Below are positions 1-61,533 of a stretch of DNA of 64,000 nucleotides, in pieces. Source of the stretch: Bathymodiolus brooksi (lineage: Eukaryota > Mollusca > Bivalvia > Mytilida > Modiolidae); NCBI GenBank assembly GCA_963680875.1, contig OY804577.1, forward strand, positions 147,454,196 through 147,518,195. Direction: 5' to 3'. The position numbers were made by a program, and so were the translations under genes. Position 1 is the stretch's first letter; every line of letters begins with the position of its first letter. The notes below the pieces were generated by a model that was not told where the DNA came from, made no database searches, and saw only the letters and a program-made list of their open reading frames with translations.

Positions 1-3000
1 TATTATTATTATTTTCAGTGATATACAGGCCAGACCATTTATATTATTATTATTTTCAGTGATATACAGATCCAATCATTTGTATTATTATTATTTTCAG
101 TGATATACAGGCCAGACCATTTGTATTATTATTATTTTCAGTGATAAACAGGCCAGACCATTTATATTATTATTATTTTCAGTGATATACAGACCAGACC
201 ATTTGTATTATTATTATTTTCTGTGATAAACAGGCCAAACCATTTATATTATTATTATTTTCAGTGATAAACAGGCCAGACCATTTATATTATTATTATT
301 TTCAGTGATAAACAGGCCAGACCCTTTGTATTATTATTATTTTCAGTGATAAACAGGGCAGACCATTTGTATTATTATTATTTTCAGTGATAAACATGCC
401 AGACCATTTGTATTATTATTATTTTCAGTGATAAACAGGCCAGTCCATTTGTATTATTATTATTTTCAGTGATAAACAGGCCAGACCATTTGTATTATTA
501 TTATTTTCAGTGATAAACAGGCCAGACCATTTGTATTATTATTTTCAGTGATAAACAGGCCAAACCATTTATATTATTATTATTTTCAGTGATAAACAGG
601 CCAGACCATTTGTATTATTATTATTTTCAGTGATAAACAGGCCAGACCATTTGTATTATTATTATTTTCAGTGATATACAGGCCAGACCATTTGTATTAT
701 TATTATTTTCAGTGATAAACAGGCCAAACCATTTATATTATTATTATTTTCAGCAATAAACAGGCCAGACCATTTATATTATTATTATTTTCAGTGATAA
801 ACAGGCCAAACCATTTATATTATTATTATTTTCAGTGATAAACAGGCCAGACCATTTGTATTATTATTATTTTCAGTGATAAACAGGCCAGACCATTTGT
901 ATTATTATTATTTTCAGTGATATACAGGCCAGACCATTTGTATTATTATTATTTTCAGTGATAAACAGGCCAGACCATTTATATTATTATTATTTTCAGT
1001 GATATACAGATGAAACCATTTGTATTATTATTATTTTCAGTGATATACAGGCCAGACCATTTGTATTATTATTATTTTCTGTGATAAACAGGACAGACCA
1101 TTTATATTATTATTATTTTCAATGATATACAGATCAAACCATTTGTATTATTATTATTTTCAGTGATAAACAGGCCAGACCATTTGTATTATTATTATTT
1201 TCAGTGATAAACAGGCCAAACCATTTGTATTATTATTATTTTCAGTAATAAACAGGCCAGACCATTTGTATTATTATTATTTTCAGTGATAAACAGGCCA
1301 AACCATTTGTATTATTATTATTTTCAGTAATAAACAGGCCAGACCATTTGTATTATTATTATTTTCAGTGATAAACAGGCCAGACCATTTGTATTATTAT
1401 TATTTTCAGTGATAAACAGGCCAAACCATTTATATTATTATTATTTTTAGTCATAAACAGGCCAAACCATTTATATTATTATTATTTTCAGTAATAAACA
1501 GGCCAAACCATTTATATTATTATTATTTTCAGTGATAAACAGGCCAGACCATTTGTATTATTATTATTTTCAGTGATATACAGGCCAGACCATTTGTATT
1601 ATTATTATTTTCTGTGATAAACAGGCCAGACCATTTGTATTATTATTATTTTTAGTGATAAACAGGCCAGACCATTTGTATTATTATTATTTTCAGTGAT
1701 ATACAGATCCAACCATTTGTATTATTATTATTTTCAGTGATATACAGGCCAGACCATTTATATTATTATTGTTGTCAGTGATAAACAGGCCAGACCATTT
1801 GTATTATTATTATTTTCAGTGATATACAGGCCAGACCATTTGTATTATTATTATTTTCAGTGATAAACAGGCCACACCATTTATATTATTATTTTCAGTG
1901 ATAAACAGGCCAAACCATTTATATTATTATTGTTTTCAATGATAAACAGGCCAGACCATTTGTATTATTATTATTTTCAGTGATATACAGGGCAGACCAT
2001 TTGTATTATTATTATTTTCAGTGATAAACAGACCAGACCATTTGTATTATTATTATTTTCAGTAATAAACAGGCCAGACCATTTGTATTATTATTATTTT
2101 CAGTGATAAACAGGCCAGACCATTTGTATTAACATTATTTTCAGTGATAAACAGGCCAAACCATTTGTATTATTATTATTTTCAGTGATAAACAGGCCAG
2201 ACCATTTGTATTATCATTATTTTCAGTGATAAACAGGCCAAACCATTTGTATTATTATTATTTTCAGTGATAAACAGGCCAGACCATTTGTATTATTATT
2301 ATATTCAGTGATAAACAGGCCAGACCATTTGTATTATTATTATTTTCAGTGATAAACAGGCTAGACCATTTATATTATTATTTTCAGTGATAAACAAGCC
2401 AGACCATTTGTATTATTATTATTTTCAGTGATATACAGGCCAGACCATTTGTATTATTATTATTTTCAGTGATAAACAGGCCAGACCATTTGTATTATTA
2501 TTATTTTCAGTGATATACAGATCCAACCATTTGTATTATTATTATTTTCAGTGATAAACAGGCCAGACCATTTATATTATTATTATTTTCAGTGATATAC
2601 AGATCCAACCATTTGTATTATTATTATTTTCAGTGATATACAGGCCAGACCATTTGTATTATTATTATTTTCAGTGATAAACAGGCCAGACCATTTGTAT
2701 TATTATTATTTTCAGTGATATACAGATCCAACCATTTGTATTATTATTATTTTCAGTGATATACAGGCCAGACCATTTGTATTATTATTATTTTCAGTGA
2801 TAAACAGGCCAGACCATTTGTATTATTATTATTTTCAGTGATAAACAGGGCAGACCATTTGTATTATTATTATTTTCAGTGATAAACATGCCAGACCATT
2901 TGTATTATTATTACTTTCAGTGATAAACAGGCCAGACCATTTGTATTATTATTATTTTCAGTGATAAACAGGCCAGACCATTTGTATTATTATTATTTTC

Positions 3001-4229
3001 AGTGATAAACAGGCCAGACCATTTATATTATTATTATTTTCAGTGATAAACAGGCCAGACCATTTGTATTATTATTATTTTCAGTGATATACAGATCAAA
3101 CCATTTGTATTATTATTATTTTCAGTGATAAACAGGCCAGACCATTTGTATTATTATTATTTTCAGTGATAAACAGGCCAGACCATTTGTATTATTATTA
3201 TTTTCAGTAATAAACATGCCAGACCATATGTATTATTATTATTTTCAGTGATAAACAGGCCAGACCATTTGTATTATTATTATTTTCAGTGATAAGCAGG
3301 CCAGACCATTTGTATTATTATTATTTTCAGTGATAAACAGGCCAGACCATTTGTATTATTATTATTTTCAGTGATAAACAGGCTAGACCATTTATATTAT
3401 TATTTTCAGTGATAAGCAGGCCAGACCATTTGTATTATTATTATTTTCAGTGATAAACACGCTAGACCATTTATATTATTATTTTCAATATAAACAGGCC
3501 AGACCATTTGTATTATTATTAATTTCAGTGATATACAGGCCAGACCATTTGTATTATTATTATTTTCAGTGATAAACAGGCCAGACCATTTGTATTATTA
3601 TTATTTTCAGTGATATACAGGCCAGACCATTTGTATTATTATTATTTTCTGTGATAAACAGGCCAGACCATTTATATTATTATTATTTTCAATGATATAC
3701 AGATCAAACCATTTGTATTATTATTATTTTCAGTGATAAACAGGCCAGACCATTTGTATTATTATTATTTTCAGTGATAAACAGGCCAAACCATTTGTAT
3801 TATTATTATTTTCAGTAATAAACAGGCCAGACCATTTGTATTATTATTATTTTCAGTGATAAACAGGCCAAACCATTTGTATTATTATTATGTTCAGTAA
3901 TAAACAGGCCAGACCATTTGTATTATTATTATTTTCAGTGATAAACAGGCCAGACCATTTGTATTATTATTATTTTCAGTGATAAACAGGCCAAACCATT
4001 TATATTATTATTATTTTCAGTGATAAACAGGCCAAACCATTTATATTATTATTATTTTCAGTAATAAACAGGCCAAACCATTTATATTATTATTATTTTC
4101 AGTGATAAACAGGCCAGACCATTTGTATTATTATTATTTTCAGTGATATACAGGCCAGACCATTTGTATTATTATTATTTTCAGTGATAAACAGGCCAGA
4201 CCATTTGTATTATTATTATTTTCAGTGAT

Positions 4230-5951
4230 ATACAGATCCAACCATTTGTATTATTATTATTTTCAGTGATATACAGGCCAGACCATTTATATTATTATTA
4301 TTTTCAGTGATAAACAGGCCAGACCATTTGTATTATTATTATTTTCAGTGATATACAGGCCAGACCATTTGTATTATTATTATTTTCAGTGATAAACAGG
4401 CCAGACCATTTGTATTATTATTATTTTCAGTGATATACAGATCCAACCATTTGTATTATTATTATTTTCAGTGATAAACAGGCCAGACCATTTATATTAT
4501 TATTATTTTCAGTGATATACAGATCCAACCATTTGTATTATTATTATTTTCAGTGATATACAGGCCAGACCATTTGTATTATTATTATTTTCAGTGATAA
4601 ACAGGCCAGACCATTTATATTATTATTATTTTCAGTGATATACATGCCAGACCATTTGTATTATTATTATTTTCTGTGATAAACAGGCCAAACAATTCAT
4701 ATTATAATTATTTTCAGTGATAAACAGGCCAGACCATTTATATTATTATTATTTTCAGTGATAAACAGGCCAGACCATTTGTATTATTATTATTTTCAGT
4801 GATAAACAGGGCAGACCATTTGTATTATTATTATTTTCAGTGATAAACACGCCAGACCATTTGTATTATTATTACTTTCAGTGATAAACAGGCCAGACCA
4901 TTTGTATTATTATTATTTTCAGTGATAAACAGGCCAGACCATTTCTATTATTATTATTTTCAGTGATAAACAGGCCAGACCATTTATATTATTATTATTT
5001 TCAGTGATAAACAGGCCAGACCATTTGTATTATTATTATTTTCAGTGATAAACAGGCCAGACCATTTGTATTATTATTATTTTCAGTGATATACAGATCC
5101 AACCATTTGTATTATTATTATTTTCAGTGATATACAGGCCAGACCATTTATATTATTATTATTTTCAGTGATAAACAGGCCAGACCATTTGTATTATTAT
5201 TATTTTCAGTGATATACAGGCCAGACCATTTGTATTATTATTATTTTCAGTGATAAACAGGCCAGACCATTTGTATTATTATTATTTTCAGTGATATACA
5301 GATCCAACCATTTGTATTATTATTATTTTCAGTGATAAACAGGCCAGACCATTTATATTATTATTATTTTCAGTGATATACAGATCCAACCATTTGTATT
5401 ATTATTATTTTCAGTGATATACAGGCCAGACCATTTGTATTATTATTATTTTCAGTGATAAACAGGCCAGACCATTTATATTATTATTATTTTCAGTGAT
5501 ATACATGCCAGACCATTTGTATTATTATTATTTTCTGTGATAAACAGGCCAAACAATTCATATTATAATTATTTTCAGTGATAAACAGGCCAGACCATTT
5601 ATATTATTATTATTTTCAGTGATAAACAGGCCAGACCATTTGTATTATTATTATTTTCAGTGATAAACAGGGCAGACCATTTGTATTATTATTATTTTCA
5701 GTGATAAACACGCCAGACCATTTGTATTATTATTACTTTCAGTGATAAACAGGCCAGACCATTTGTATTATTATTATTTTCAGTGATAAACAGGCCAGAC
5801 CATTTCTATTATTATTATTTTCAGTGATAAACAGGCCAGACCATTTATATTATTATTATTTTCAGTGATAAACAGGCCAGACCATTTGTATTATTATTAT
5901 TTTCAGTAATAAACATGCCAGACCATATGTATTATTATTATTTTCAGTGAT
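4230..5951 (+). repeat. Higher-order repeat in satellite 1, 861-bp period
   Basis: Two adjacent blocks of 861 bp (21 units of 41 bp) share the same order of variant units. The ATACAGATCC variant lies at 4230 and 5091. The rare AACAATTCATATTATAATT variant lies at 4691 and 5552, giving the same offset. The order of the GGGCAGACC, CACGCCAGACC and TTACTTTCAG variants that follow is also shared. This indicates tandem duplication of a 21-mer block by unequal exchange or a similar process. The outer limits are approximate. Confidence 0.75.
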
Positions 5952-8922
5952 AAACAGGCCAGACCATTTATATTATTATTTTAAGTGATAAACAGGCCAC
6001 ACCATTTGTATTATTATTATTTTCAGTGATAAACAGGCTAGACCATTTGTATTATTATTATTTTCAGTGATAAACAGGCCAGACCATTTGTATTATTATT
6101 ATTTTCAGTGATAAACAGGCCAGACCATTTGTATTATTATTATTTTCAGTGATAAACAGGCCAGACCATTTGTATTATTATTATTTTCAGTGATAAACAG
6201 GCTAGACCATTTATATTATTATTTTCAGTGATAAGCAGGCCAGACCATTTGTATTATTATTATTTTCAGTGATAAACAGGCTAGACCATTTATATTATTA
6301 TTTTCAATATAAACAGGCCAGACCATTTGTATTATTATTAATTTCAGTGATATACAGGCCAGACCATTTGTATTATTATTATTTTCAGTGATAAACAGGC
6401 CAGACCATTTATATTATTATTATTTTTAGTGATAAACAGGCCAGACCATTTGTATTATTATTATTTTCAGTGATATACAGAACCAACCATTTGTATTATT
6501 ATTATTTTCAGTGATATACAGGCCAGACCATTTATATTATTATTATTTTCAGTGATATACAGATCCAACCATTTGTATTATTATTATTTTCAGTGATATA
6601 CAGGCCAGACCATTTGTATTATTATTATTTTCAGTGATAAACAGGCCAGACCATTTATATTATTATTATTTTCAGTGATATACAGACCAGACCATTTGTA
6701 TTATTATTATTTTCTGTGATATACAGGCCAAACCATTTATATTATTATTATTTTCAGTGATAAACAGGCCAGACCATTTATATTATTATTATTTTCAGTG
6801 ATAAACAGGCCAGACCATTTGTATTATTATTATTTTCAGTGATAAACAGGGTAGACCATTTGTAATATTATTATTTTCAGTGATAAACATGCCAGACCAT
6901 TTGTATTATTATTATTTTCAGTGATAAACAGGCCAGACCATTTGTATTATTATTATTTTCAGTGATAAACAGGCTAGACCATTTGTATTATTATTATTTT
7001 CAGTGATAAACAGGCCAGACCATTTGTATTATTATTATTTTCAGTGATAAACAGGCCAGACCATTTGTATTATTATTATTTTCAGTGATATATAGATCCA
7101 ACCATTTGTATTATTATTATTTTCAGTGATATACAGGCCAGACCATTTATATTATTATTATTTTCAGTGATAAACAGGCCAGACCATTTATATTATTATT
7201 ATTTTCAGTGATATACAGGCCAGACCATTTGTATTATTATTATTTTCTGTGATAAACAGGCCAAACCATTTATATTATTATTATTTTCAGTGATAAACAG
7301 GCCAAACCATTTATATTATTATTATTTTCAGTGATAAACAGGCCAGACAATTTGTATTATTATTATTTTCAGTGATAAACAGGCCAAACCATTTGTATTA
7401 TTATTATTTTCAGTGATAAACAGGCCTGACCATTTATATTATTATTATTTTCAGTGATAAACAGGCCAGACCATTTGTATTATTATTATTTTCAGTGATA
7501 TACAGATCAAACCATTTGTATTATTATTATTTTCAGTGATAAACAGGCCAAACCATTTGTATTATTATTATTTTCAGTGATAAACAGGCCAGACCATTTG
7601 TATTATTATTATTTTCAGTGATAAACAGGACAGACCATTTGTATTATTATTATTTTCAGTGATAAACAGGCTAGACCATTTATATTATTATTTTCAGTAA
7701 TAAACAGGCCAGACCATTTGTATTATTATTATTTTCAGTGATAAACAGGCTAGACCATTTATATTATTATTTTCAGTGATAAGCAGGCAAAACCATTTAT
7801 ATTATTATTATTTTCAGTGATAAACAGGCCAGACCATTTGTATTATTATTATTTTCAGTGATAAACAGGCCAAACCATTTGTATTATTATTATTTTCAGT
7901 GATAAACAGGCCAGACCATTTGTATTATTATTATTTTCAGTGATAAACAGGCTAGACCATTTATATTATTTATTTCAGTGATAAACAGGCCAGACCATTT
8001 GTATTATTATTATTTTCAGTGATATACAGGCCAGACCATTTGTATTATTATTTTCAGTGATAAACAAGCCAGACCATTTGTATTATTATTATTTTTAGTG
8101 ATAAACAGGCCAGACCATTTGTATTATTATTATTTTCAGTGATATACAGATCCAACCATTTGTATTATTATTATTTTCAGTGATATACAGGCCAGACCAT
8201 TTATATTATTATTATTTTCAGTGATATACAGATCCAATCATTTGTATTATTATTATTTTCAGTGATATACAGGCCAGACCATTTGTATTATTATTATTTT
8301 CAGTGATAAACAGGCCAGACCATTTATATTATTATTATTTTCAGTGATATACAGGCCAGACCATTTGTATTATTATTATTTTCTGTGATAAACAGGCCAA
8401 ACCATTTATATTATTATTATTTTCAGTGATAAACAGGCCAGACCATTTATATTATTATTATTTTCAGTGATAAACAGGCCAGACCATTTGTATTATTATT
8501 ATTTTCAGTGATAAACAGGGCAGACCATTTGTATTATTATTATTTTCAGTGATAAACACGCCAGACCATTTGTATTATTATTATTTTCAGTGATAAACAG
8601 GCCAGACCATTTGTATTATTATTATTTTCAGTGATAAACAGGCCAGACCATTTGTATTATTATTATTTTCAGTGATAAACAGGCCAAACCATTTATATTA
8701 TTATTATTTTCAGTGATAAACAGGCCAAACCATTTATATTATTATTATTTTCAGTGATATACAGGCCAGACCATTTGTATTATTATTATTTTCAGTGATA
8801 TACAGGCCAGACCATTTGTATTATTATTATTTTCAGTGATAAACAGGCCAGACCATTTGTATTATTATTATTTTTAGTGATAAACAGGCCAGACCATTTG
8901 TATTATTATTATTTTCAGTGAT

Positions 8923-10190
8923 ATACAGATCCAACCATTTGTATTATTATTATTTTCAGTGATATACAGGCCAGACCATTTATATTATTATTATTTTCAG
9001 TGATAAACAGGCCAGACCATTTGTATTATTATTATTTTCAGTGATATACAGGCCAGACCATTTGTATTATTATTATTTTCAGTGATAAACAGGCCAGACC
9101 ATTTGTATTATTATTATTTTCAGTGATATACAGATCCAACCATTTGTATTATTATTATTTTCAGTGATAAACAGGCCAGACCATTTATATTATTATTATT
9201 TTCAGTGATATACAGATCCAACCATTTGTATTATTATTATTTTCAGTGATATACAGGCCAGACCATTTGTATTATTATTATTTTCAGTGATAAACAGGCC
9301 AGACCATTTATATTATTATTATTTTCAGTGATATACATGCCAGACCATTTGTATTATTATTATTTTCTGTGATAAACAGGCCAAACAATTCATATTATAA
9401 TTATTTTCAGTGATAAACAGGCCAGACCATTTATATTATTATTATTTTCAGTGATAAACAGGCCAGACCATTTGTATTATTATTATTTTCAGTGATAAAC
9501 AGGGCAGACCATTTGTATTATTATTATTTTCAGTGATAAACACGCCAGACCATTTGTATTATTATTACTTTCAGTGATAAACAGGCCAGACCATTTGTAT
9601 TATTATTATTTTCAGTGATAAACAGGCCAGACCATTTCTATTATTATTATTTTCAGTGATAAACAGGCCAGACCATTTATATTATTATTATTTTCAGTGA
9701 TAAACAGGCCAGACCATTTGTATTATTATTATTTTCAGTAATAAACATGCCAGACCATATGTATTATTATTATTTTCAGTGATAAACAGGCCAGACCATT
9801 TATATTATTATTTTAAGTGATAAACAGGCCACACCATTTGTATTATTATTATTTTCAGTGATAAACAGGCTAGACCATTTGTATTATTATTATTTTCAGT
9901 GATAAACAGGCCAGACCATTTGTATTATTATTATTTTCAGTGATAAACAGGCCAGACCATTTGTATTATTATTATTTTCAGTGATAAACAGGCCAGACCA
10001 TTTGTATTATTATTATTTTCAGTGATAAACAGGCTAGACCATTTATATTATTATTTTCAGTGATAAGCAGGCCAGACCATTTGTATTATTATTATTTTCA
10101 GTGATAAACAGACTAGACCATTTATATTATTATTTTCAATATAAACAGGCCAGACCATTTGTATTATTATTAATTTCAGTGATATACAGG
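8923..10190 (+). repeat. Copy of the 5.09-6.35 kb block of satellite 1 (offset 3832 bp)
   Basis: Three private markers keep a constant spacing: ATACAGATCC (5091 and 8923), AACAATTCATATTATAATT (5552 and 9384) and the short TTTTCAATATAAAC unit (6301 and 10133). All three pairs are 3832 bp apart, so at least 1.2 kb was duplicated as one block. Similarity seems to fade shortly after 10190, where the AACCAACC-type unit of the first copy is missing. Confidence 0.7.
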
Positions 10191-13100
10191 CCAGACCATT
10201 TGTATTATTATTATTTTCAGTGATAAACAGGCCAGACCATTTGTATTATTATTATTTTTAGTGATAAACAGGCCAGACCATTTGTATTATTATTATTTTT
10301 AGTGATAAACAGGCCAGACCATTTATATTATTATTATTTTCAGTGATATACAGATCCAACCATTTGTATTATTATTATTTTCAGTGATATACAGGCCAGA
10401 CCATTTGTATTATTATTATTTTCAGTGATAAACAGGCCAGACCATTTATATTATTATTATTTTCAGTGATATACAGACCAGACCATTTGTATTATTATTA
10501 TTTTCTGTGATATACAGGCCAAACCATTTATATTATTATTATTTTCAGTGATAAACAGGCCAGACCATTTATATTATTATTATTTTCAGTGATAAACAGG
10601 CCAGACCATTTGTATTATTATTATTTTCAGTGATAAACAGGGTAGACCATTTGTAATATTATTATTTTCAGTGATAAACATGCCAGACCATTTGTATTAT
10701 TATTATTTTCAGTGATATACAGGCCAGACCATTTGTATTATTATTAATTTCAGTGATATACAGGCCAGACCATTTGTATTATTATTATTTTCAGTGATAA
10801 ACAGGCCAGACCATTTATATTATTATTATTTTCAGTGATATACAGGCCAGACCATTTGTATTATTATTATTTTCTGTGATAAACAGGCCAAACCATTTAT
10901 ATTATTATTATTTTCAGTGATAAACAGGCCAGACCATTTATATTATTATTATTTTCAGTGATAAACAGGCCAGACCATTTGTATTATTATTATTTTCAGT
11001 GATAAACAGGGCAGACCATTTGTATTATTATTATTTTCAGTGATAAACACGCCAGACCATTTGTATTATTATTATTTTCAGTGATAAACAGGCCAGACCA
11101 TTTGTATTATTATTATTTTCAGTGATAAACAGGCCAGACCATTTGTATTATTATTATTTTCAGTGATAAACAGGCCAAACCATTTATATTATTATTATTT
11201 TCAGTGATAAACAGGCCAAACCATTTATATTATTATTATTTTCAGTGATATACAGGCCAGACCATTTGTATTATTATTATTTTCAGTGATATACAGGCCA
11301 GACCATTTGTATTATTATTATTTTCAGTGATAAACAGGCCAGACCATTTGTATTATTATTATTTTTAGTGATAAACAGGCCAGACCATTTGTATTATTAT
11401 TATTTTCAGTGATATACAGATCCAACCATTTGTATTATTATTATTTTCAGTGATATACAGGCCAGACCATTTATATTATTATTATTTTCAGTGATAAACA
11501 GGCCAGACCATTTGTATTATTATTATTTTCAGTGATATACAGGCCAGACCATTTGTATTATTATTATTTTCAGTGATAAACAGGCCAGACCATTTGTATT
11601 ATTATTATTTTCAGTGATATACAGATCCAACCATTTGTATTATTATTATTTTCAGTGATAAACAGGCCAGACCATTTATATTATTATTATTTTCAGTGAT
11701 ATACAGATCCAACCATTTGTATTATTATTATTTTCAGTGATATACAGGCCAGACCATTTGTATTATTATTATTTTCAGTGATAAACAGGCCAGACCATTT
11801 ATATTATTATTATTTTCAGTGATATACATGCCAGACCATTTGTATTATTATTATTTTCTGTGATAAACAGGCCAAACAATTCATATTATAATTATTTTCA
11901 GTGATAAACAGGCCAGACCATTTATATTATTATTATTTTCAGTGATAAACAGGCTAGACCATTTATATTATTATTTTCAGTGATAAGCAGGCCAGACCAT
12001 TTGTATTATTATTATTTTCAGTGATAAACAGGCTAGACCATTTATATTATTATTTTCAATATAAACAGGCCAGACCATTTGTATTATTATTAATTTCAGT
12101 GATATACAGGCCAGACCATTTGTATTATTATTATTTTCAGTGATAAACAGGCCAGACCATTTGTATTATTATTATTTTTAGTGATAAACAGGCCAGACCA
12201 TTTGTATTATTATTATTTTCAGTGATATACAGAACCAACAATTTGTATTATTATTATTTTCAGTGATATACAGGCCAGACCATTTATATTATTATTATTT
12301 TCAGTGATATATAGATCCAACCATTTGTATTATTATTATTTTCAGTGATATACAGGCCAGACCATTTGTATTATTATTATTTTCAGTGATAAACAGGCCA
12401 GACCATTTATATTATTATTATTTTCAGTGATATACAGACCAGACCATTTGTATTATTATTATTTTCTGTGATATACAGGCCAAACCATTTATATTATTAT
12501 TATTTTCAGTGATAAACAGGCCAGACCATTTATATTATTATTATTTTCAGTGATAAACAGGCCAGACCATTTGTATTATTATTATTTTCAGTGATAAACA
12601 GGGTAGACCATTTGTAATATTATTATTTTCAGTGATAAACATGCCAGACCATTTGTATTATTATTATTTTCAGTGATAAACAGGCCAGACCATTTGTATT
12701 ATTATTATTTTCAGTGATAAACAGGCTAGACCATTTGTATTATTATTATTTTCAGTGATAAACAGGCCAGACCATTTGTATTATTATTATTTTTAGTGAT
12801 AAACAGGCCAGACCATTTGTATTATTATTATTTTCAGTGATATATAGATCCAACCATTTGTATTATTATTATTTTCAGTGATATACAGGCCAGACCATTT
12901 ATATTATTATTATTTTCAGTGATATACAGGCCAGACCATTTGTATTATTATTATTTTCTGTGATAAACAGGCCAAACCATTTATATTATTATTATTTTCA
13001 GTGATAAACAGGCCAAACCATTTATATTATTATTATTTTCAGTGATAAACAGGCCAGACAATTTGTATTATTATTATTTTCAGTGATAAACAGGCCAAAC

Positions 13101-13987
13101 CATTTGTATTATTATTATTTTCAGTGATAAACAGGCCAGACCATTTATATTATTATTATTTTCAGTGATAAACAGGCCAGACCATTTGTATTATTATTAT
13201 TTTCAGTGATATACAGATCAAACCATTTGTATTATTATTATTTTCAGTGATAAACAGGCCAAACCATTTGTATTATTATTATTTTCAGTGATAAACAGGC
13301 CAGACCATTTGTATTATTATTATTTTCAGTGATAAACAGGACAGACCATTTGTATTATTATTATTTTCAGTGATAAACAGGCTAGACCATTTATATTATT
13401 ATTTTCAGTAATAAACAGGCCAGACCATTTGTATTATTATTATTTTCAGTGATAAACAGGCTAGACCATTTATATTATTATTTTCAGTGATAAGCAGGCC
13501 AAACCATTTATATTATTATTATTTTCAGTGATAAACAGGCCAGACCATTTGTATTATTATTATTTTCAGTGATAAACAGGCCAAACCATTTGTATTATTA
13601 TTATTTTCAGTGATAAACAGGCCAGACCATTTGTATTATTATTATTTTCAGTGATAAACAGGCTAGACCATTTATATTATTTATTTCAGTGATAAACAGG
13701 CCAGACCATTTGTATTATTATTATTTTCAGTGATATACAGGCCAGACCATTTGTATTATTATTTTCAGTGATAAACAGGCCAGACCATTTGTATTATTAT
13801 TATTTTCAGTGATATACAGATCCAACCATTTGTATTATTATTATTTTCAGTGATATACAGGCCAGACCATTTGTATTATTATTATTTTCAGTGATAAACA
13901 GGCCAGACCATTTATATTATTATTATTTTCAGTGATATACATGCCAGACCATTTGTATTATTATTATTTTCTGTGATAAACAGGCCA

Positions 13988-15430
13988 AACAATTCATATT
14001 ATAATTATTTTCAGTGATAAACAGGCCAGACCATTTATATTATTATTATTTTCAGTGATAAACAGGCTAGACCATTTATATTATTATTTTCAGTGATAAG
14101 CAGGCCAGACCATTTGTATTATTATTATTTTCAGTGATAAACAGGCTAGACCATTTATATTATTATTTTCAATATAAACAGGCCAGACCATTTGTATTAT
14201 TATTAATTTCAGTGATATACAGGCCAGACCATTTGTATTATTATTATTTTCAGTGATAAACAGGCCAGACCATTTGTATTATTATTATTTTTAGTGATAA
14301 ACAGGCCAGACCATTTGTATTATTATTATTTTCAGTGATATACAGAACCAACAATTTGTATTATTATTATTTTCAGTGATATACAGGCCAGACCATTTAT
14401 ATTATTATTATTTTCAGTGATATACAGATCCAACCATTTGTATTATTATTATTTTCAGTGATATACAGGCCAGACCATTTGTATTATTATTATTTTCAGT
14501 GATAAACAGGCCAGACCATTTATATTATTATTATTTTCAGTGATATACAGACCAGACCATTTGTATTATTATTATTTTCTGTGATATACAGGCCAAACCA
14601 TTTATATTATTATTATTTTCAGTGATAAACAGGCCAGACCATTTATATTATTATTATTTTCAGTGATAAACAGGCCAGACCATTTGTATTATTATTATTT
14701 TCAGTGATAAACAGGGTAGACCATTTGTAATATTATTATTTTCAGTGATAAACATGCCAGACCATTTGTATTATTATTATTTTCAGTGATAAACAGGCCA
14801 GACCATTTGTATTATTATTATTTTCAGTGATAAACAGGCTAGACCATTTGTATTATTATTATTTTCAGTGATAAACAGGCCAGACCATTTGTATTATTAT
14901 TATTTTTAGTGATAAACAGGCCAGACCATTTGTATTATTATTATTTTCAGTGATATATAGATCCAACCATTTGTATTATTATTATTTTCAGTGATATACA
15001 GGCCAGACCATTTATATTATTATTATTTTCAGTGATATACAGGCCAGACCATTTGTATTATTATTATTTTCTGTGATAAACAGGCCAAACCATTTATATT
15101 ATTATTATTTTCAGTGATAAACAGGCCAAACCATTTATATTATTATTATTTTCAGTGATAAACAGGCCAGACAATTTGTATTATTATTATTTTCAGTGAT
15201 AAACAGGCCAAACCATTTGTATTATTATTATTTTCAGTGATAAACAGGCCAGACCATTTATATTATTATTATTTTCAGTGATAAACAGGCCAGACCATTT
15301 GTATTATTATTATTTTCAGTGATATACAGATCAAACCATTTGTATTATTATTATTTTCAGTGATAAACAGGCCAAACCATTTGTATTATTATTATTTTCA
15401 GTGATAAACAGGCCAGACCATTTGTATTAT
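13988..15430 (+). repeat. Copy of the 11.87-13.32 kb block of satellite 1 (offset 2113 bp)
   Basis: The AACAATTCAT variant (11875 and 13988), the TTTTCAATATAAAC unit (12053 and 14166) and the AGGCCAGACAATTTG variant (13051 and 15164) are each separated by exactly 2113 bp. The copies part near 13.33 kb and 15.44 kb, where the first copy has additional units (GGACAGACC, then GGCTAGACC and TAATAAACAGG) that the second lacks. Confidence 0.7.
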
Positions 15431-17565
15431 TATTATTTTCAGTGATAAACAGGCTAGACCATTTATATTATTATTTTCAGTGATAAGCAGGCCAAACCAT
15501 TTATATTATTATTATTTTCAGTGATAAACAGGCCAGACCATTTGTATTATTATTATTTTCAGTGATAAACAGGCCAAACCATTTGTATTATTATTATTTT
15601 CAGTGATAAACAGGCCAGACCATTTGTATTATTATTATTTTCAGTGATAAACAGGCTAGACCATTTATATTATTTATTTCAGTGATAAACAGGCCAGACC
15701 ATTTGTATTATTATTATTTTCAGTGATATACAGGCCAGACCATTTGCATTATTATTTTCAGTGATAAACAGGCCAGACCATTTGTATTATTATTATTTTC
15801 AGTGATAAACAGGCCAGACCATTTGTATTATTATTATTTTCAGTGATATACAGATCCAACCATTTGTATTATTATTATTTTCAGTGATATACAGGCCAGA
15901 CCATTTATATTATTATTATTTTCAGTGATATACAGATCCAATCATTTGTATTATTATTATTTTCAGTGATATACAGGCCAGACCATTTGTATTATTATTA
16001 TTTTCAGTGATAAACAGGCCAGACCATTTATATTATTATTATTTTCAGTGATATACAGGCCAGACCATTTGTATTATTATTATTTTCTGTGATAAACAGG
16101 CCAAACCATTTATATTATTATTATTTTCAGTGATAAACAGGCCAGACCATTTATATTATTATTATTTTCAGTGATAAACAGGCCAGACCATTTGTATTAT
16201 TATTATTTTCAGTGATAAACAGGGCAGACCATTTGTATTATTATTATTTTCAGTGATAAACACGCCAGACCATTTGTATTATTATTATTTTTAGTGATAA
16301 ACAGGCCAGACCATTTGTATTATTATTATTTTCAGTGATAAACAGGCCAGACCATTTGTATTATTATTATTTTCAGTGATAAACAGGCCAAACCATTTAT
16401 ATTATTATTATTTTCAGTGATAAACAGGCCAAACCATTTATATTATTATTATTTTCAGTAATAAACAGGCCAGACCATTTATATTATTATTATTTTCAGT
16501 GATAAACAGGCCAAACCATTTATATTATTATTATTTTCAGTGATAAACAGACCAGACCATTTGTATTATTATTATTTTCAGTGATAAACAGGCCAGACCA
16601 TTTGTATTATTATTATTTTCAGTGATATACAGGCCAGACCATTTGTATTATTATTATTTTCAGTGATAAACAGGCCAGACCATTTATATTATTATTATTT
16701 TCAGTGATATACAGATCAAACCATTTGTATTATTATTATTTTCAGTGATATACCGGCCAGACCATTTGTATTATTATTATTTTCTGTGATAAACAGGCCA
16801 GACCATTTATATTATTATTATTTTCAATGATATACAGATCAAACCATTTGTATTATTATTATTTTCAGTGATAAACAGGCCAGACCATTTGTATTATTAT
16901 TATTTTCAGTGATAAACAGGCCAAACCATTTGTATTATTATTATTTTCAGTAATAAACAGGCCAGACCATTTGTATTATTATTATTTTCAGTGATAAACA
17001 GGCCAAACCATTTGTATTATTATTATTTTCAGTAATAAACAGGCCAGACCATTTGTATTATTATTATTTTCAGTGATAAACAGGCCAGACCATTTGTATT
17101 ATTATTATTTTCAGTGATAAACAGGCCAAACCATTTATATTATTATTATTTTCAGTGATAAACAGGCCAAACCATTTATATTATTATTATTTTCAGTAAT
17201 AAACAGGCTAAACCATTTATATTATTATTATTTTCAGTGATAAACAGGCCAGACCATTTGTATTATTATTATTTTCAGTGATAAACAGGCCAAACCATTT
17301 ATATTATTATTATTTTCAGTGATAAACAGGCCAGACCATTTGTATTATTATTATATTCAGTGATATACAGGCCAAACCATTGGTATTATTATTATTTTCT
17401 GTGATAAAAAGGCCAGACCATTTATATTATTATTATTTTCAGTGATAAACAGGCCAGACCATTTATATTATTATTATTTTCAGTGATATACAGGCCAGAC
17501 CATTTGTATTATTATTATTTTCTGTGATAAACAGGCCAAACCATTTATATTATTATTATTTTCAG

Positions 17566-17704
17566 TGATAAACAGGCCAGACCATTTGTATTATTTGGTA
17601 CTAACACAAGGAAATCTGTTTTGGAAGCTGTGAGATCAGGGGAAACTACACTTAATACAGACATAATGAAATCTGGTGTTGATGGAGAAATACCAAAGTT
17701 TATG
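17566..17704 (+). CDS. Candidate internal exon of an unrecognised gene
   Basis: The sequence is open in one frame only. Reading after the TTATTTTCAG acceptor (17556-17565), one base completes a codon and 46 codons follow, ending in ATG at 17702-17704. The donor is ATG|GTGAGT. The product starts DKQARPFVLFGTNTRK and ends GVDGEIPKFM; composition is ordinary for protein and the other two forward frames stop quickly. An alternative acceptor, AAACAG|GCC at 17575, would give a 129-bp exon of 43 codons in phase 0 at both ends. The first 30 bases are also the last satellite-1 unit; from 17596 the sequence is unique. I do not recognise a family. Upstream exons would lie left of the window, beyond at least 17.5 kb of satellite. 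That this is a real exon is inferred from the open frame and both splice signals; transcript data are absent. Confidence 0.5.
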
Positions 17705-17780
17705 GTGAGTGATTGATTGATTGGTGTTTGATGCCAACTTTAGCAATATTTCAGCTATATCATGGCGTGTATGGTGAGTG
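17701..17780 (+). other. Duplicated splice-donor sequence flanking an insertion
   Basis: The 11-bp direct repeat TATGGTGAGTG occurs at 17701-17711 and 17770-17780. Both copies contain the same ATG|GTGAGT donor. The pair looks like the target-site duplication of the 58-bp insert between them. Only the first donor keeps the exon open, because reading past it meets TGA within four codons. Confidence 0.6.
17712..17769 (+). mobile_element. SINE-like fragment of mollusc type (58 bp)
   Basis: The insert begins with ATTGATTGATTGGTGTTTGA and continues with GCAATATTTCAGCTATATC and ATGGCGTG. This order resembles the central part of an interspersed repeat that I recall from many mollusc genomes, in which GGTGTTTAACGCC is followed by AGCAATATT and a CGGCG stretch. 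It lies between 11-bp direct repeats. The tRNA-like half of such an element is not present, so this is at most a short fragment. Family assignment is from memory. Confidence 0.4.
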
Positions 17781-17975
17781 AAAAGAGAGTGTATGGCAAG
17801 TTGTAAATAAAAAGAAAACTAGTGTGGATTGTAGTGGTGCACCGATCATCGGAAACATCGACTAATCAGTCGGACGTCATCATACGATCCGATGATCGAT
17901 TCTCATACCTTGTGGTCGATTCTGATTCCTAGTGTCTAAAATATATAGGCTACACTTTATTCTTTGTTTTTTTCC

Positions 17976-19525: not shown

Positions 19526-19651
19526 TTGGTGAAGGAAACCACAGAACTGGCAAACTGTATAATGATAGTCATGAATGACATACTTAAGTTGGTGAAGGAA
19601 ACCACAGAACTGGCAAACTGTATAATGATAGTCATGAATGACATACTTAAG
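19526..19651 (+). repeat. Perfect 63-bp tandem duplication
   Basis: Two identical 63-bp copies occupy 19526-19588 and 19589-19651, beginning TTGGTGAAGGAAACC and ending GACATACTTAAG. The unit is 21 codons, and one frame (LVKETTELANC...MNDILK) is open through both copies, preceded by KSVL from AAG at 19513 and closed by TAG at 19652. The perfect identity implies a very recent event. It could be part of a small unrecognised exon, but I see no donor and acceptor pair of matching phase, so I list it only as a repeat. Confidence 0.9.
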
Positions 19652-19771: not shown

Positions 19772-20484
19772 AGAGACCAGAGACCCCTCCACACCTGACC
19801 TGCAGCAAACCTCTAGTTGAAACCAAGGGAGACTTCTTGTGTGAACTTGATGAAGCAATACAGGTTCTAGAGAGCCTCAAGTTTGAGCCCAATGAAGCAA
19901 TACATGTTCTTGAAAGCCTCTTGTTTAAACCCAATGAAGCAATACATGTTCTTGAAAGCTTCTTGTTTAAACCCAATAAAGCAATACATGTGCTTGAAAG
20001 CTACTTGTTTAAACTCAATAAAGCAATACATGGTCTTGAAAGCTTCTTGTTTAAGCCCAATGAAGCAATACATGTTCTTGAAAGCTTCTTGTTTAAACGT
20101 AATGAAGCAATACATTGTCTTGAAAGCTTCCTGTTTAAACCCAATAAAGCAATATATGGTCTTGAAAGCTTCTTTTTTAAACCTAATGAAGCAATACATT
20201 GTCTTGAAAGCTTCCTGTTTAAACCCAATAAAGCAATATATGGTCTTGGAAGCCTCTTATTTAAATCTAATGAAGCAATACATGGTCTTGATAGCTTTTT
20301 ATTTAAACCTAATGAAGCAATACATGGTCTTGAAAGCTTCTTATTTAAAGCTAATGAAGCAATACATGGTCTTGAAAGCTTCTTGTTTAAACCTAATGAA
20401 GCAATACATGGTCTTGAAAGCTTCTTGTTTAAATCTAATGAAGCAATACATGGTCTTGAAAGCTTCTTGTTTAAACCCAATTAA
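19772..20484 (+). CDS. Candidate exon: unique 25-residue start plus 15 copies of a 14-residue repeat
   Basis: A polypyrimidine stretch and acceptor, GTGTGTCTCTTCTAG, end at 19771. The open frame (codons from 19774) begins RPETPPHLTCSKPL and continues through KGDFLCEL to residue 25. Fifteen 14-residue repeats follow exactly from 19849 to 20478. The first is divergent, DEAIQVLESLKFEP; later ones approach NEAIHGLESFLFKP. TAA at 20482-20484 ends the frame. Using TAG|AG needs a phase-1 upstream intron, while the 17704 donor leaves phase 0; the neighbouring acceptor TAGAG| at 19773 would match in phase. This is the longest stop-free run of this frame in the window; the next is about ten units. The repeat has a TPR-like look (EAI..LE.....P) but is far shorter than a 34-residue TPR. 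Function unknown; transcription and the exact joint are inference. Confidence 0.45.
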
Positions 20485-55528: not shown

Positions 55529-56357
55529 TACATGATATTGAAAACTTCTTGTTTAAACCTAATGAAGCAATACATGGTCTTGAAAGCTTCTTGTTTAAAC
55601 CCAATTAAATAATACATAATATTGAAAACTTCTTGTTTAAACCTAATGAAGCAATACATGGTCTTGAAAGCTTCTTGTTTAAACCTAATGAAACAATACA
55701 TGATCTTGAAAGCTTCTTGTTTAAACCCAATGAAGCAATACATGGTCTTGATAGCTTCTTGTTTAAACCTAATGAAGCAATACATGTTCTTGATAGCTTC
55801 TTGTTTAAATCTAATGAAGCAATACATGGTCTTGAAAGCTTCTTATTTAAACCTAATGAAGCAATACATGGTCTTGAAAGCTTCTTGTTTAAACCCAATT
55901 AAATAATACATGATATTGAAAACTTCTTGTTTAAACCTAATGAAGCAATACATGGTCTTGAAAGCTTCTTGTTTAAACCCAATTAAATAATACATGATAT
56001 TGAAAACTTCTTGTTTAAACCTAATGAAGCAATACATGGTCTTGAAAGCTTCTTGTTTAAATCTACTGAAACAATACATGATCTTGAAAGCTTCTTGTTT
56101 AAACCCAATGAAGCAATACATGGTCTTGATAGCTTCTTGTTTAAACCTAATGAAGCAATACATGTTCTTGATAGCTTCTTGTTTAAATCTAATGAAGCAA
56201 TACATGGTCTTGAAAGCTTCTTATTTAAACCTAATGAAGCAATACATGGTCTTGAAAGCTTCTTGTTTAAACCCAATTAAATAATACATGATATTGAAAG
56301 ATTCTTGTTTAAACCTAATGAAGCAATACATGTTCTTGAAAGCTTCTTGTTTAAGCC

Positions 56358-57680
56358 CAGACTTCCCGAAACTTGCTGAGAAGTTGTCAGTCATTCGGAC
56401 TGACAGACATGAAAATCTTGTCAGTCCGAAAAATATTTGCCGGTCCGAAAAAAAAGTCCCAAAAAATTCACTGTCACATGCATAATGTTTAGTTTGGCCT
56501 TTTTAGAGTGATTTACCCTAGTATTAGCAATTGGGCACCTGATTTCACCTCTGGTTTTTATAGAGGTTAAAGTAATTCAATTTTCAGTTTTCAGTGTTGT
56601 TCAAAATTGTATATGTTATGTCTTTTATAGTGTGTGTCTCGAGTTTTGTTGTTTTGATGACCTTGTACTATAGGTCAATGGTTGTATGAAAGACGTCATG
56701 TCATTGGCTAATATATATACAAATAACCAATCGTGTCGTGATCGTCTTCACAAATGGGTTTGATTGAAACCGGAAATATATAAAAGGGGTGAAAACAATG
56801 AAAATTATGTAATTTAAAAATAAAATTAAACACTGATCAATGCCTTTCGGACAAAATCTGAGGTAACTATTATACCAAACATTCGGTATTACAGAGTTGG
56901 CGAAAACTTTTTTTTTCTTTCTGACATTGGGTCAGACAGGAACTGGGGTTCTGTCTTACCAATGGGCTTTGTGTCTGTCCCACCATTTTTTTGTAATATT
57001 GTATATAACCTGTCAAATTTTGTTTTTTTTATACAGAACTGAATGCAAGATTACCTATAGTCATGATCATTAAACAACTCAATTAAATGTTTTTCTGTAT
57101 ACATATTTTTATCTAAAAAGATAAGGCAGATATAGCCAACAATCCGTATCTAATGGTCCGATCACGTTCCGAATATTATACATCAATGTCAGTTTCCGGT
57201 TTACCTACATTTTTAATTTCAGTTAAGAATATGAATCTGCTGTCATCTTCAATATATAAGCATCTCAAAACATATTTAATTAAACACAAACAATCTTTGA
57301 TACTTGGGGAGTGTGGAAGTCAACTTATTTCTGTGCTCAGTAATATATTTCAGTCTTAATGTTCCACGTTTTGCAGGTGCTGGTTCCTACTAAAAGGATG
57401 TTTACATTTACGTACATTTGTATAGGAGTTTCGATTACAAAGAGGAACGTGTCGGTCTGACAGAATAAATAAACAAATTTCAAGTCTCTGTCTGACATTT
57501 TAATAAAACTGAAAACGGAATTTAATGCCATTGGCAGTGAAAACTGGGAGGGAATAAATTTCAATCGCCGGTCCTTTCAAATATCTGTGTTTTACCGGAC
57601 ATTTGGTCCGATATATATTTTGAAATCGTCGGTCCTACTGCATTTCTGTCGGTCAGGACCGACGGTTTTCGGTAAGTCTG
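56358..57680. mobile_element. Non-autonomous DNA transposon with CAGACTT termini (1323 bp)
   Basis: The element interrupts one satellite-2 unit. AAGCC is repeated at 56353-56357 and 57681-57685, a 5-bp target duplication. The left end is CAGACTTCCCGAAA and the right end, read inward on the other strand, is CAGACTTACCGAAAA. Just inside each end is a small hairpin: GTCAGTC-ATTCG-GACTGAC on the left and GTCGGTC-CT-GACCGAC on the right. Further GTCCGA/TCGGAC-type motifs are scattered near both ends. Two short open frames (57153-57359 and 57337-57564 on the minus strand) have no recognisable transposase signature. A 5-bp duplication with CAG ends could fit a hAT-like group with short duplications; the superfamily is unresolved. 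Confidence 0.75.
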
Positions 57681-59106
57681 AAGCCTAATGAAGCAATACA
57701 TGGTCATGAAAGCCTCTTGTTTAAACCCAATTAAACAATACATGATATTGAAAGATTCTTGTTTAAACCTAATGAAGCAATACATGGTCTTGAAAGCTTC
57801 TTGTTTAAACCGAATTAAATAATACATGATATTGAAAACTTCTTGTTTAAACCTAATGAAGCAATACATGGTCTTGAAAGCTTCTTGTTTAAACCCAATT
57901 AAGCAATACATGATATTGAAAGCTTCTTGTTTAAACCTAATGAAGCAATACATGGTCTTGAAGCTTCTTGTTTAAGCCCAATTAAATAATACATGATATT
58001 GAAAGCTTCTTGTGTAAACCTAATGAAGCAATACATGGTCTTGAAAGCTTCTTGTTTAAACCCAATTAAATAATACATGATATTGAAAACTTCTTGTTTA
58101 AACCTAATGAAGCAATACATGTTCTTGAAAGCTTCTTGTTTAAACCTAATGAAGAAATACATGGTCTTGAAAGCTTCTTTTTTAAACCTAATGAAGCAAT
58201 GCATGGTCTTGAAAGCTTCTTGTTTAAACCCTATTAAACAATACATGATATTGAAAACTTCTTGTTTAAACCTAATGAAGCAATACATGGTCTTGAAAGC
58301 TTCTTGTTTAAACCTAATGAAGCAATACATGGTCTTGAAAGCTTCTTGTTTAAACCCTATTAAACAATACATGATATTGAAAACTTCTTGTTTAAACCTA
58401 ATGAAGCAATACATGTTCTTGAAAGCTTCTTTTTTAAACCTAATGAAGCAATGCATGGTCTTGAAAGCTTCTTGTTTAAACCCTATTAAACAATACATGA
58501 TATTGAAAACTTCTTGTTTAAACCTAATGAAGCAATACATGGTCTTGAAAGCTTCTTGTTTAAACCCAATTAAGCAATACATGATATTGAAAGCTTCTTG
58601 TTTAAACCTAATGAAGCAATACATGGTCTTGAAAGCTTCTTGTTTAAGCCCAATTAAATAATACATGATATTGAAAGCTTCTTGTGTAAACCTAATGAAG
58701 CAATACATGGTCTTGAAAGCTTCTTGTTTTAACCCAATTAAATAATACATGATATTGAAAGCTTCTTGTTTAAACCTAATGAAGCAATACATGTTCTTGA
58801 AAGCTTCTTGTTTAAACCTAATGAAGCAATACATGGTCTTGAAAGCTTCTTGTTTAAACCCTATTAAACAATACATGCTATTGAAAACTTCTTGTTTAAA
58901 CCTAATGAAGCAATACATGTTCTTGAAAGCTTCTTGTTTAAACCTAATGAAGCAATACATGGTCTTGAAAGCTTCTTGTTTAAACCCAATGAAGCAATAC
59001 ATGGTCTTGATAGCTTCTTGTTTAAACCCAATGAAGCAATGCATTGTCTTGAAAGCTTCTTGTTTAAACCCAATTAAACAATACATGATATTGAAAACTT
59101 CTTGTT
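57681..59106 (+). repeat. Satellite 2, second segment
   Basis: About 34 units of the same 42-bp repeat, in the same orientation and register as the main array once the 1323-bp insertion is removed. Type B units recur every few units, several with CCCTATTAAACAATACATGATATTG. The segment ends in the left copy of the LINE target duplication, AAACTTCTTGTT at 59095-59106. Confidence 0.95.
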
Positions 59107-59262
59107 GATTTAAACTTATTTTATTGTTCATAATAACAACAAATGGATCAGACACAAGTTTTACAACTTAGAAATATCTTCTCCGCTAGTTACATCAATT
59201 TACATATAATTAGAAGAGCTTTAAATACATAATAATAAAATATTTGTTCAGAATATGAAAAC

Positions 59263-59286
59263 GAAGAAGAAGAAGAAAAAAAAAAA
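59263..59286 (+). repeat. (GAA)n/A-rich tract in the LINE 3' region
   Basis: Four GAA triplets are followed by a run of A on the plus strand (T-rich on the LINE sense strand). It lies in the 3' untranslated part of the element and is not its tail. Confidence 0.8.
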
Positions 59287-59636
59287 CATACAATAGAACG
59301 AAAAATGCAAATTTCAAAAGTCGATGAAACATACTGTGTGCTAAGGTATAATATATGGCAAATCGAGCACACCTCAAAAGACAATTCTTAAACACGTGGT
59401 GTATGTGTGTTGCATACTTGGATCGTATTACGATTAGGCATAGTTTATATGTTGGGGTTTGGGATCTTGCATACCTAGGTAAGTACAATTTGAACTGAAT
59501 GACACATGTATATTTCATCGACTTGTGACATGTCAATCAATCAATACCCCAAGTGCGACCAAGAAAAGAATATACGTACATGTAGAAGTACACAATGTTG
59601 ACAATTGTCAAAAATGTTGCATGTTGACTTGTTAGT

Positions 59637-61533
59637 TCAAGAGAAACACCGTGTATCTTTTATGTATTTTTGTACACATGAAAATATAAACGTGTTTATT
59701 TCTACAGACAGGTTATCATTTCCAAATAACAAAATATCGATATTTACCGGTAGACCCCCCATATCAAGCATATTTAATTCAATTAGCATGTTATTTCTAA
59801 GTAAATTGAATTTATTACAATATAATAGAAAATGTTCGGAACATTCGTTTTTATTTCCACACGAACAAGAAGCACTAGGCACCAAATTCGATTTAAATAA
59901 ATCGCTGTTTAGAGAACTACATTTATTTCTAAGCCTAGCATGCAATACACTAAGATATCGGTTTCCAAAAGAAAAGTAAGAAGGTACAGTTTTCGGTTGA
60001 AAATATTTTTGTTGCAATTTGGATTTAAAAGACGGAAGTGTCGGCAGTTGACAAAGGTTCAGATCTAGAGTGTTCCATAATTTAAGCGTACTTGGAAAAT
60101 AAGACTGTTGATATGTAGATAATCGGTATGATGGTTGTGAAATATTTAGTCTGTTCCTTAAATTATAGTTATTAGTGTCAGCGACTGTAGGTGGTACCAA
60201 TTCTGTTAAATAATCAGGTACTTCACCGTTAACGATTTTATAAAATAGGACCAATTTTCTTACCTCCCTTCTAGTTTTCAACTTTTCCCACCCCGTCTCG
60301 ATATAAATAGAATTTATACTGGCAAACGATGGTAATCCCATAACAATACGTGCAGCTTCAAGTTGAACTTTTTCTAATCTGTCCGAATTTATTTGTCCAC
60401 AATTATCCCACACTTCTGATGCATATTCCAATACAGGTCTAATAAATGTTAAGTAAATTTTTTCTAAGTAATTTCTGTTAAGACGGTATTTTAATTTTCT
60501 GAGTACATTAAGTTGTTTCGAAGCTGATTCAATTAATTTGTCTATGTGCTTAGTCCACTTACAGTCGCTGCTGAATACAATCCCTAAATGTTTGTGTGTA
60601 TGTACTGGATCAATAGTTGTTTGGTCAAAATTAAATGTTAAATTACATTCAACGCCATTGACATTAAAAATAATAATTTCAGTTTTGGTGGGATTAAACT
60701 TTAATAACCACCTGTTTGACCATTTTTTCAGGTGATTCAGATCTGTATTAATCATATTTCTTAGTGTGCTTTCATCTTGTGCTATATGTCCAATAGACGT
60801 GTCATCAGCAAAAAGACGACCTAGACCTACTATCTCATCAGTAATATCATTTATGAAGATCAAGAACATTAAAGGGCCCAATACTGACCCCTGAGGCACA
60901 CCTGCATGCAAATGACCAATCCCGGATAAAGCATCTTTTATCATAACCCTTTGAGTACGTTTAGAAAGATAACTGTTTAACCAACAAAGCAGATCACTTT
61001 TAATACCATATTTGCCAAGTTTATATAAAAGTGCTTTTACCCAAACTGTATCAAATGCTTTGCTTATATCAGCAAATGTAACGCTGGTCACTTGTTTTGC
61101 CTCTAATGCAAGTAATATTCTATGATACAACTCTATTAGTTGATGACTTGTAGAGTGACCTGGTATAAATCCCGACTGGAACTTGTATAATAGTTTATTT
61201 TCAAGTAGGTGATTAAACACATGCTTGAAAATAATTTTTTCCAGCACCTGACTTACACAAGAAAGTAAAGAAATAGGTCTATAGTTAGACGGTAAAGATT
61301 TGTCCCCATTTAAACAGAGGGATTACATGGAAGATTTTCCAGTCCGATGGAAATACTTTTTCACGTAAGGATTTATTAAATAAACTACACAATGGTTTCG
61401 ATATCTCCTCCTTTACCGACACCAACATCCTATTACTAATTATCGGGACCAACAGCTTTATTAGCATTAAGAGTACATAACATATCGATTACTTCTTGTT
61501 CAGTAACGATAACTTGGGATAGAATATTTTCAC
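59637..61533 (-). pseudogene. LINE reverse transcriptase, truncated and frameshifted
   Basis: The intact 536-residue portion (59637-61247) holds the palm motifs in order: TFADISKAFDTVW (motif A), GVPQGSVLGP (B) and LFADDTS (C, with the FADD catalytic pair), followed by KFNPTKTEIIIF and HLGIVFS. The thumb region follows, and near the C-terminus CSCGNKNECSEHFLLYC gives a C-x-C...H...C zinc-knuckle-like pattern. The N-terminal part of the domain continues upstream in other frames. One segment ends ANKAVGPDN before a stop at about 61437-61442, and a second runs from SNRMLVSV to VIPLFK before a frame change near 61305-61315. The protein would copy element RNA at a nicked target, but no upstream endonuclease remains here. 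The coding frame starts abruptly at the truncation point and is read in phase with satellite sequence. Confidence 0.92.

Follow-up and report, generated by a model that had tools for sequence, protein, structure and literature searches.

Does the 41-bp satellite that fills the first 17,595 positions of this stretch of Bathymodiolus brooksi DNA descend from a splice junction and, if so, which of its many acceptor copies would serve the gene? The stretch analysed (the window; 64,000 nucleotides, G000:C3:147454196-147518195, in an assembly of 2.0 Gb and 136 contigs) was examined together with 60 kb upstream and 40 kb downstream, giving a locus of 164 kb; coordinates follow the window numbering, with negative values lying upstream of it. 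Our results indicate, with a probability of about 0.92, that the satellite, here array 1, is a 'mirage' minisatellite (a term used for the lancelet repeats compared below) at satellite size, in which the 3′ splice junction of a DNAAF9-like gene has been multiplied about 854 times. The features on which this interpretation draws are as follows.

Positions 1–17595, plus strand: part of array 1 inside the window, 41-bp units composed of the intron end and the start of exon A.
Positions 17548–17588, plus strand: terminal full unit of array 1, identical to the consensus.
Positions 17566–17704, plus strand: predicted exon A of the DNAAF9-like gene, T followed by 46 codons (DKQARPFVLFG...IPKFM).
Positions 17705–17713, plus strand: predicted 5′ splice site of exon A, ATG followed by GTGAGTGAT, weight-matrix score 10.8.
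Positions 17705–64000, plus strand: window part of intron A→Z (full intron 17705–64362, 46,658 bp, 87.7% tandem repeat, mostly array 2).
Positions 64363–64444: predicted exon Z, outside the window, 3′ of intron A→Z.

Tandem Repeats Finder delimited array 1 within the window at 1–17595, with a period of 41, 431.2 copies and 93% matches, and recovered exactly the unit quoted in the original prediction, which had been made from the window alone. That prediction of a multiplied intron/exon junction held: the 41-bp unit consists of the last 18 nt of an intron (TATTATTATTATTTTCAG) followed by the first 23 nt of the coding exon A (TGATAAACAGGCCAGACCATTTG). By wraparound alignment, the window contains 432 units, including a 7-nt partial unit at the end; 400 of them have the AG, 368 have TTTTCAG and 90 are identical to the consensus. 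The array is cut by the window start and begins 17.2 kb upstream of it. Its full span is -17230 to 17595 (34.8 kb, G000:C3:147436965-147471790), with 854 full units, of which 801 retain an intact AG and 744 an exact TTTTCAG. These counts go beyond the more than 400 acceptor copies that had been proposed. The terminal unit runs through TATTATT into TTGGTACTAACAC and then into an open frame that extends up to ATG/GTGAGTGA at 17704/17705; one end of the array thus runs into exon A, the first 30 nt of which lie inside it. Only this last unit leads into unique coding-like sequence with a good donor, again as foreseen. The exact junction 29-mer had 411 matches in the assembly, all forward and all (411/411) in the array 1 locus, 208 in the window and 203 in the part of the array upstream of it. 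No exact copy was found outside this locus in a search that covered exact matches and not diverged copies; a repeat pre-existing elsewhere, which the prediction itself had named as counter-evidence, was looked for in this genome and not found. Within the same limit, the unit does not occur at many loci or chromosomes, unlike a classical dispersed or centromeric satellite. Judged by exact matches, array 1 is a repeat private to this one place.

The coding nature of exon A was assessed against the Pfam family DAAF9 (PF25203, dynein axonemal assembly factor 9; curated cut-off 27 bits). Exons X, A, Z, U, V and T follow one another (476 nt in all), each with an open frame and GT-AG sites and in phases that fit together; joined in phase, the six matched DAAF9 with 93.4 bits (E 1.8e-26) over a single collinear stretch that covers positions 46-192 of the 501 in the profile. 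X+A+Z gave 59.9 bits, exon Z adding 37.7 bits, and exon V added 8.4 bits alone and 25 bits with U in place. When X+A was reversed, no DAAF9 match was obtained; V reversed or hand-scrambled on X+A+Z brought no gain (59.9 and 59.1 bits, respectively), and another V scramble resulted in 62.0 bits instead of 87.4. Most of the DAAF9 score is carried by Z and V, which are firm, with gains well beyond the chance level. Exon A on its own had no significant homologue (10.6 bits against DAAF9); protein searches, PDB searches with the exon peptides of the locus and Rfam gave no informative match, and read-through Pfam scans of the flanking DNA returned nothing useful. Judged by homology and phase, exon A is a conserved DAAF9 coding exon, with a frame that crosses from the upstream to the downstream exon, and the exon originally proposed at 17566–17704 is upheld as real.

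The intron that ends at exon A has its donor end to the left of array 1. This intron X→A (35,381 bp, with a predicted splice from -17816 to 17566) is essentially all tandem repeat (tandem fraction 1.000); it is composed of a short array 0 with ~13 units bearing a donor-like signal, followed by the 854 acceptor-bearing units. We joined exon X to the TTTTCAG-type site of each AG-intact unit (n = 801). Results showed that only the last site, at 17566, gives a frame open through exon A, the others meeting a stop after 19–75 codons (median 44). Mean variation per column was higher in the exon-derived part of the unit (5.8%) than in the part derived from the intron (1.5%). With codon positions assigned by hand, changes in the three most variable columns would alter the amino acid, a pattern to be expected where sequence has ceased to code.

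The array edges suggest a possible start of the multiplication. With AATCATTTATATTATTATTATT at the left edge and CCATTTGTATTATTTGG at the right, the two have 13 bp in common, CATTTRTATTATT, copies of which, one intronic and one exonic, would have stood 41 bp apart in the single-copy ancestor. A first duplication between these direct repeats, by slippage or unequal exchange, might have seeded array 1, although such a seed is not proven. Unequal exchange or replication slippage would then have lengthened and homogenised the array, all junction copies except the last becoming intron. Exon definition from the exon A donor would probably select the nearest, that is the last, acceptor, because only this one sits 139 nt upstream of that donor. 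Any other tested acceptor would lead to a stop before or within exon A and presumably to transcript decay.

Several results weigh against this interpretation. With a splice-site weight matrix, the acceptor score was low, 3.3 at exon A and 3.8 for the unit consensus (vs. 8.4 for the acceptor of exon X), and the unit acceptor was no better than shuffles of the unit (p 0.47). The acceptor described at first as textbook-like is only moderately good, and the splice motif was rejected as proof of a junction origin, being equalled by shuffled units. Two further AGs per unit (positions 27 and 32) fall outside the acceptor test. X+A alone scored 22.2 bits against DAAF9, below the cut-off, and since the read-through scans gave spurious matches in repetitive DNA down to E 1.3e-5, the E value of 6.9e-5 for X+A was accepted only once Z and V had lifted the score. 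Chance gains of ~5 bits occurred, and one other downstream candidate lifted X+A+Z to 65.1 bits. When five alternative upstream peptides were tried along with a frame-shifted W, one wrong peptide lifted X+A to 27.6 bits, for which reason a further candidate exon, W (28.1 bits), is tentative and not secure as a part of the gene. Exon U reversed gave 86.6 vs. 87.4 bits; the case for U comes from its phase, its length and its splice sites and not from its sequence, and its membership is less certain, while T, adding 6.0 bits with no scrambled control, probably belongs to the gene. The edge overlaps of 25 aligned array rows in the 164-kb locus ranged from 0 to 47 bp with no clear short-length cluster, and a 13-bp seed was rejected as a general rule. 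Finally, both the use of the acceptor at 17566 and the direction of change, from a single junction to an array, are suggested by homology and phase. It is these two that constitute the evidence for the junction; the motif alone proves nothing.

Could array 1 instead be an ordinary satellite from elsewhere that ends by chance beside unique DNA, the exon being a chance frame and the motif a T-rich coincidence? The performance of the shuffled units would suit this explanation, as would the weak match of exon A taken alone and the abundance of minisatellites in this genome: in 23 stretches of 6 kb, taken at hand-picked round coordinates on C1-C6 and C8, the tandem fraction averaged 0.416 (range 0 to 1.00) and 30 arrays were present. 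It is, however, already contradicted by the collinear 93.4-bit DAAF9 match of six exons with fitting phases, by the confinement of the 411 exact 29-mer matches to one locus and by the donor end of the same intron to the left of the array, and we consider it highly improbable. Hardly more credible is an assembly artefact in the length of array 1. Although 34.8 kb of 41-bp units are hard to assemble, the array contains 141 distinct unit sequences, its divergence is even along its length (1.24-1.88 differences per unit across the 17 full 50-unit bins) and it has no strong higher-order period.

Other explanations accept the junction origin and differ in its consequences. Upstream acceptors might be used at a real rate, so that frameshifted, decay-prone transcripts lower or tune DNAAF9 output, perhaps according to array length. 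The retention of the AG in 801 and of TTTTCAG in 744 of the 854 units is compatible with such a role, and PMC3087553 gives its authors' view that mirage units could serve as cryptic sites. Yet, in the lancelet work, Adh3 data and globin reverse transcription PCR (RT-PCR) suggested that regular splicing is intact despite the mirages. Moreover, the AG retention of 93.8% is close to that of an average column (~92% expected by hand calculation), which gives no sign of selection for or against decoys; we regard the use of upstream acceptors as unlikely. It is likewise rather improbable that the locus is a decayed or duplicated DNAAF9 copy, the working gene with ordinary introns lying elsewhere and the decoys being of no consequence, as six open, phase-compatible exons with GT-AG sites (U and T less certain) would be unlikely in an old pseudogene.

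Further elements were observed around exon A and in the introns that follow. An exact 12-mer, TATGGTGAGTGA, at 17701 and 17770 flanks a short element (17701–17781) that resembles a mollusc SINE (gastropod-like repeat); the 12-mer would represent a target-site duplication encompassing, and hence doubling, the exon A donor. The segment 17832–18587, which has the ends TAGTGGTGCACCGATCATCGG and ...CCCATCACTAG and contains inverted repeats, resembles a hAT-type miniature inverted-repeat transposable element (MITE). At 19526–19651 lies a perfect two-copy, 63-bp tandem duplication (100% identical, one frame open as LVKETTELANCIMIVMNDILK), perhaps a newborn array; as a next exon it was rejected, since it did not extend the DAAF9 match. 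Array 2 (42 bp, i.e., 14 codons) has a coding-like start in intron A→Z (19774–20480), after TGTCTCTTCTAG, with a frame made of NEAIHVLESFLFKP repeats; no family above its cut-off matched it. A corresponding exon C (19774 onward) was rejected as a part of DNAAF9, given that Z follows X+A directly in the profile, leaving no gap, and that the score was not raised when C was added. Array 2 also contains a 1.3-kb insertion (56355–57683), DNA-transposon-like by eye, with apparent terminal inverted repeats CAGACTTCCCGAAA / TTTTCGGTAAGTCTG, and on the minus strand a non-LTR retrotransposon-like piece (59107–61536) with a reverse-transcriptase frame (RVT_1, E 2.8e-25). Downstream of the window, where the 48-bp array at 65154 begins, a 30-nt exon was rejected in both of two readings (DAAF9 gain ≤0.3 bits), and a 343-aa open frame, by eye seven-helix receptor-like, occupies the opposite strand inside intron Z→U (L015, 70088–71116, minus strand).

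Arrays at splice junctions were also found elsewhere in the gene, in a locus that is 85% tandem repeats. The donors of exons V, U and T (U and T less certain as exons) are each contained in a donor-side array, which takes in 30, 7 and 45 nucleotides of the respective exon. By alignment, the exon X donor marks the beginning of array 0, which includes one exon base; this donor was not counted by Tandem Repeats Finder. In the DNAAF9-like gene, 3/6 donors (4/6 counting array 0) and 1/6 acceptors are thus inside arrays, U and T being only probable. If seeds fell at random in unique sequence, 3/6 donors would be expected with p 0.007 and 4/6 with p 0.0004, and 4/12 or 5/12 junctions with p 0.009 or 0.001, in tests made after the fact that include U and T. 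Among the 30 arrays of the genome sample, three carry the donor junction of a homology-supported exon, and at two further exons an array ends ~6-30 bp before the acceptor without including the exon:

XPNPEP1-like exon: donor array of 126 bp × 3 (PDB 3ctz, E 1.2e-19).
Clathrin_H_link exon, CLHC1-like: donor array of 39 bp, at least 18 copies (E 2.6e-11).
AP5Z1-like exon: donor array of 36 bp × 63 (E 8.2e-15).
CFA20-domain-like exon, L023 near 605: 42-bp array ending before the acceptor (E 0.0009, below the curated cut-off).
Tetraspanin-like exon, L033 near 2195, minus strand: 67-bp array ending before the acceptor (E 0.0004, below the curated cut-off).

The scan for exons near array edges is biased toward array-adjoining junctions; a scan independent of arrays detected other exon-like frames, e.g., in L019, without an array nearby. 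Strong donors, with a weight-matrix score of at least 12 bits, were present in 4/45 array units, whereas shuffled units led to an expectation of 0.38; two of these donors, in L020 and in the array at 65154, have no gene evidence behind them. Acceptors were not enriched. Both boundary types are affected: the 3′ at exon A, and the 5′ after V, probably after U and T, and at the XPNPEP1-, CLHC1- and AP5Z1-like donors. The proportion of donors in arrays, the three sampled arrays and the excess of strong donors support a broader proposal, which we hold only tentatively and with some doubt. Introns here may grow largely by amplifying their own splice junctions, with minisatellites nucleating there preferentially, above all at 5′ sites; many genes would then carry tens to hundreds of near-exact decoys, and the spliceosome would routinely choose the outermost copy.

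Array 1 offers a natural experiment on splice-site choice, with hundreds of identical or near-identical acceptors in a row and one predicted to be productive. In this cilia gene the spliceosome would have to find that site among its decoys, and the copy that is used would separate exon definition, branch-point scanning and stochastic choice. The locus also provides a clear-cut satellite origin, in a splice junction that belongs to a conserved gene, and points to a way in which a short intron could grow to 35 kb with no transposon involved. Since several further cases occur in the assembly, both the process and a possible junction preference become testable genome-wide.

How does array 1 compare with systems already described? 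In a limited literature search, we recognised no splice-junction array of satellite size. A 1995 study (first author Turri) reportedly described a minisatellite that supplies splice donors in the gene 6-16/IFI6. It is said to hold likewise many copies of one splice site at a junction, but on the donor side and in a short array, whereas array 1 lies on the acceptor side and has the scale of a satellite. Coding sequence and splice signals are similarly duplicated in tandem when introns are gained from AGGT-bearing exon sequence (PMC4974935; lancelet model in PMC3087553); that process makes a new intron, while at array 1 the intron was already present and became longer, and no additional exon is proposed. 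The closest parallel is found in the lancelet mirage minisatellites. According to PMC3087553 and PMC3902484, these occur in Adh3, the globins BflGb6 and BflGb9, and TnC, with similar repeats in PGBD5, as tandem units across a 5′ or 3′ exon-intron boundary beside the authentic exon, many with AG/GT. The same papers give unit sizes of 10-72 bp for Adh3 and of 60 and 108 bp for PGBD5, while BflGb6, with units of 150-160 bp, has 3 of them in one haplotype and 6 in another; they report regular splicing as apparently undisturbed and call the mechanism of origin unclear. As in these mirages, the units of array 1 cross an authentic boundary, adjoin an authentic exon and carry splice signals. The opinion in the original prediction that no satellite formed this way had been described must be narrowed accordingly, since mirages are on record in lancelets, although the globin cases have few units. 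Unlike them, array 1 comprises 854 units of 41 bp over 34.8 kb, more than 100 times the units of the globin cases, intron X→A is built of two arrays from both ends, and further cases occur in several genes. What is new here is thus the satellite scale, an intron made of junction arrays from both ends, and the recurrence in several genes of one genome.

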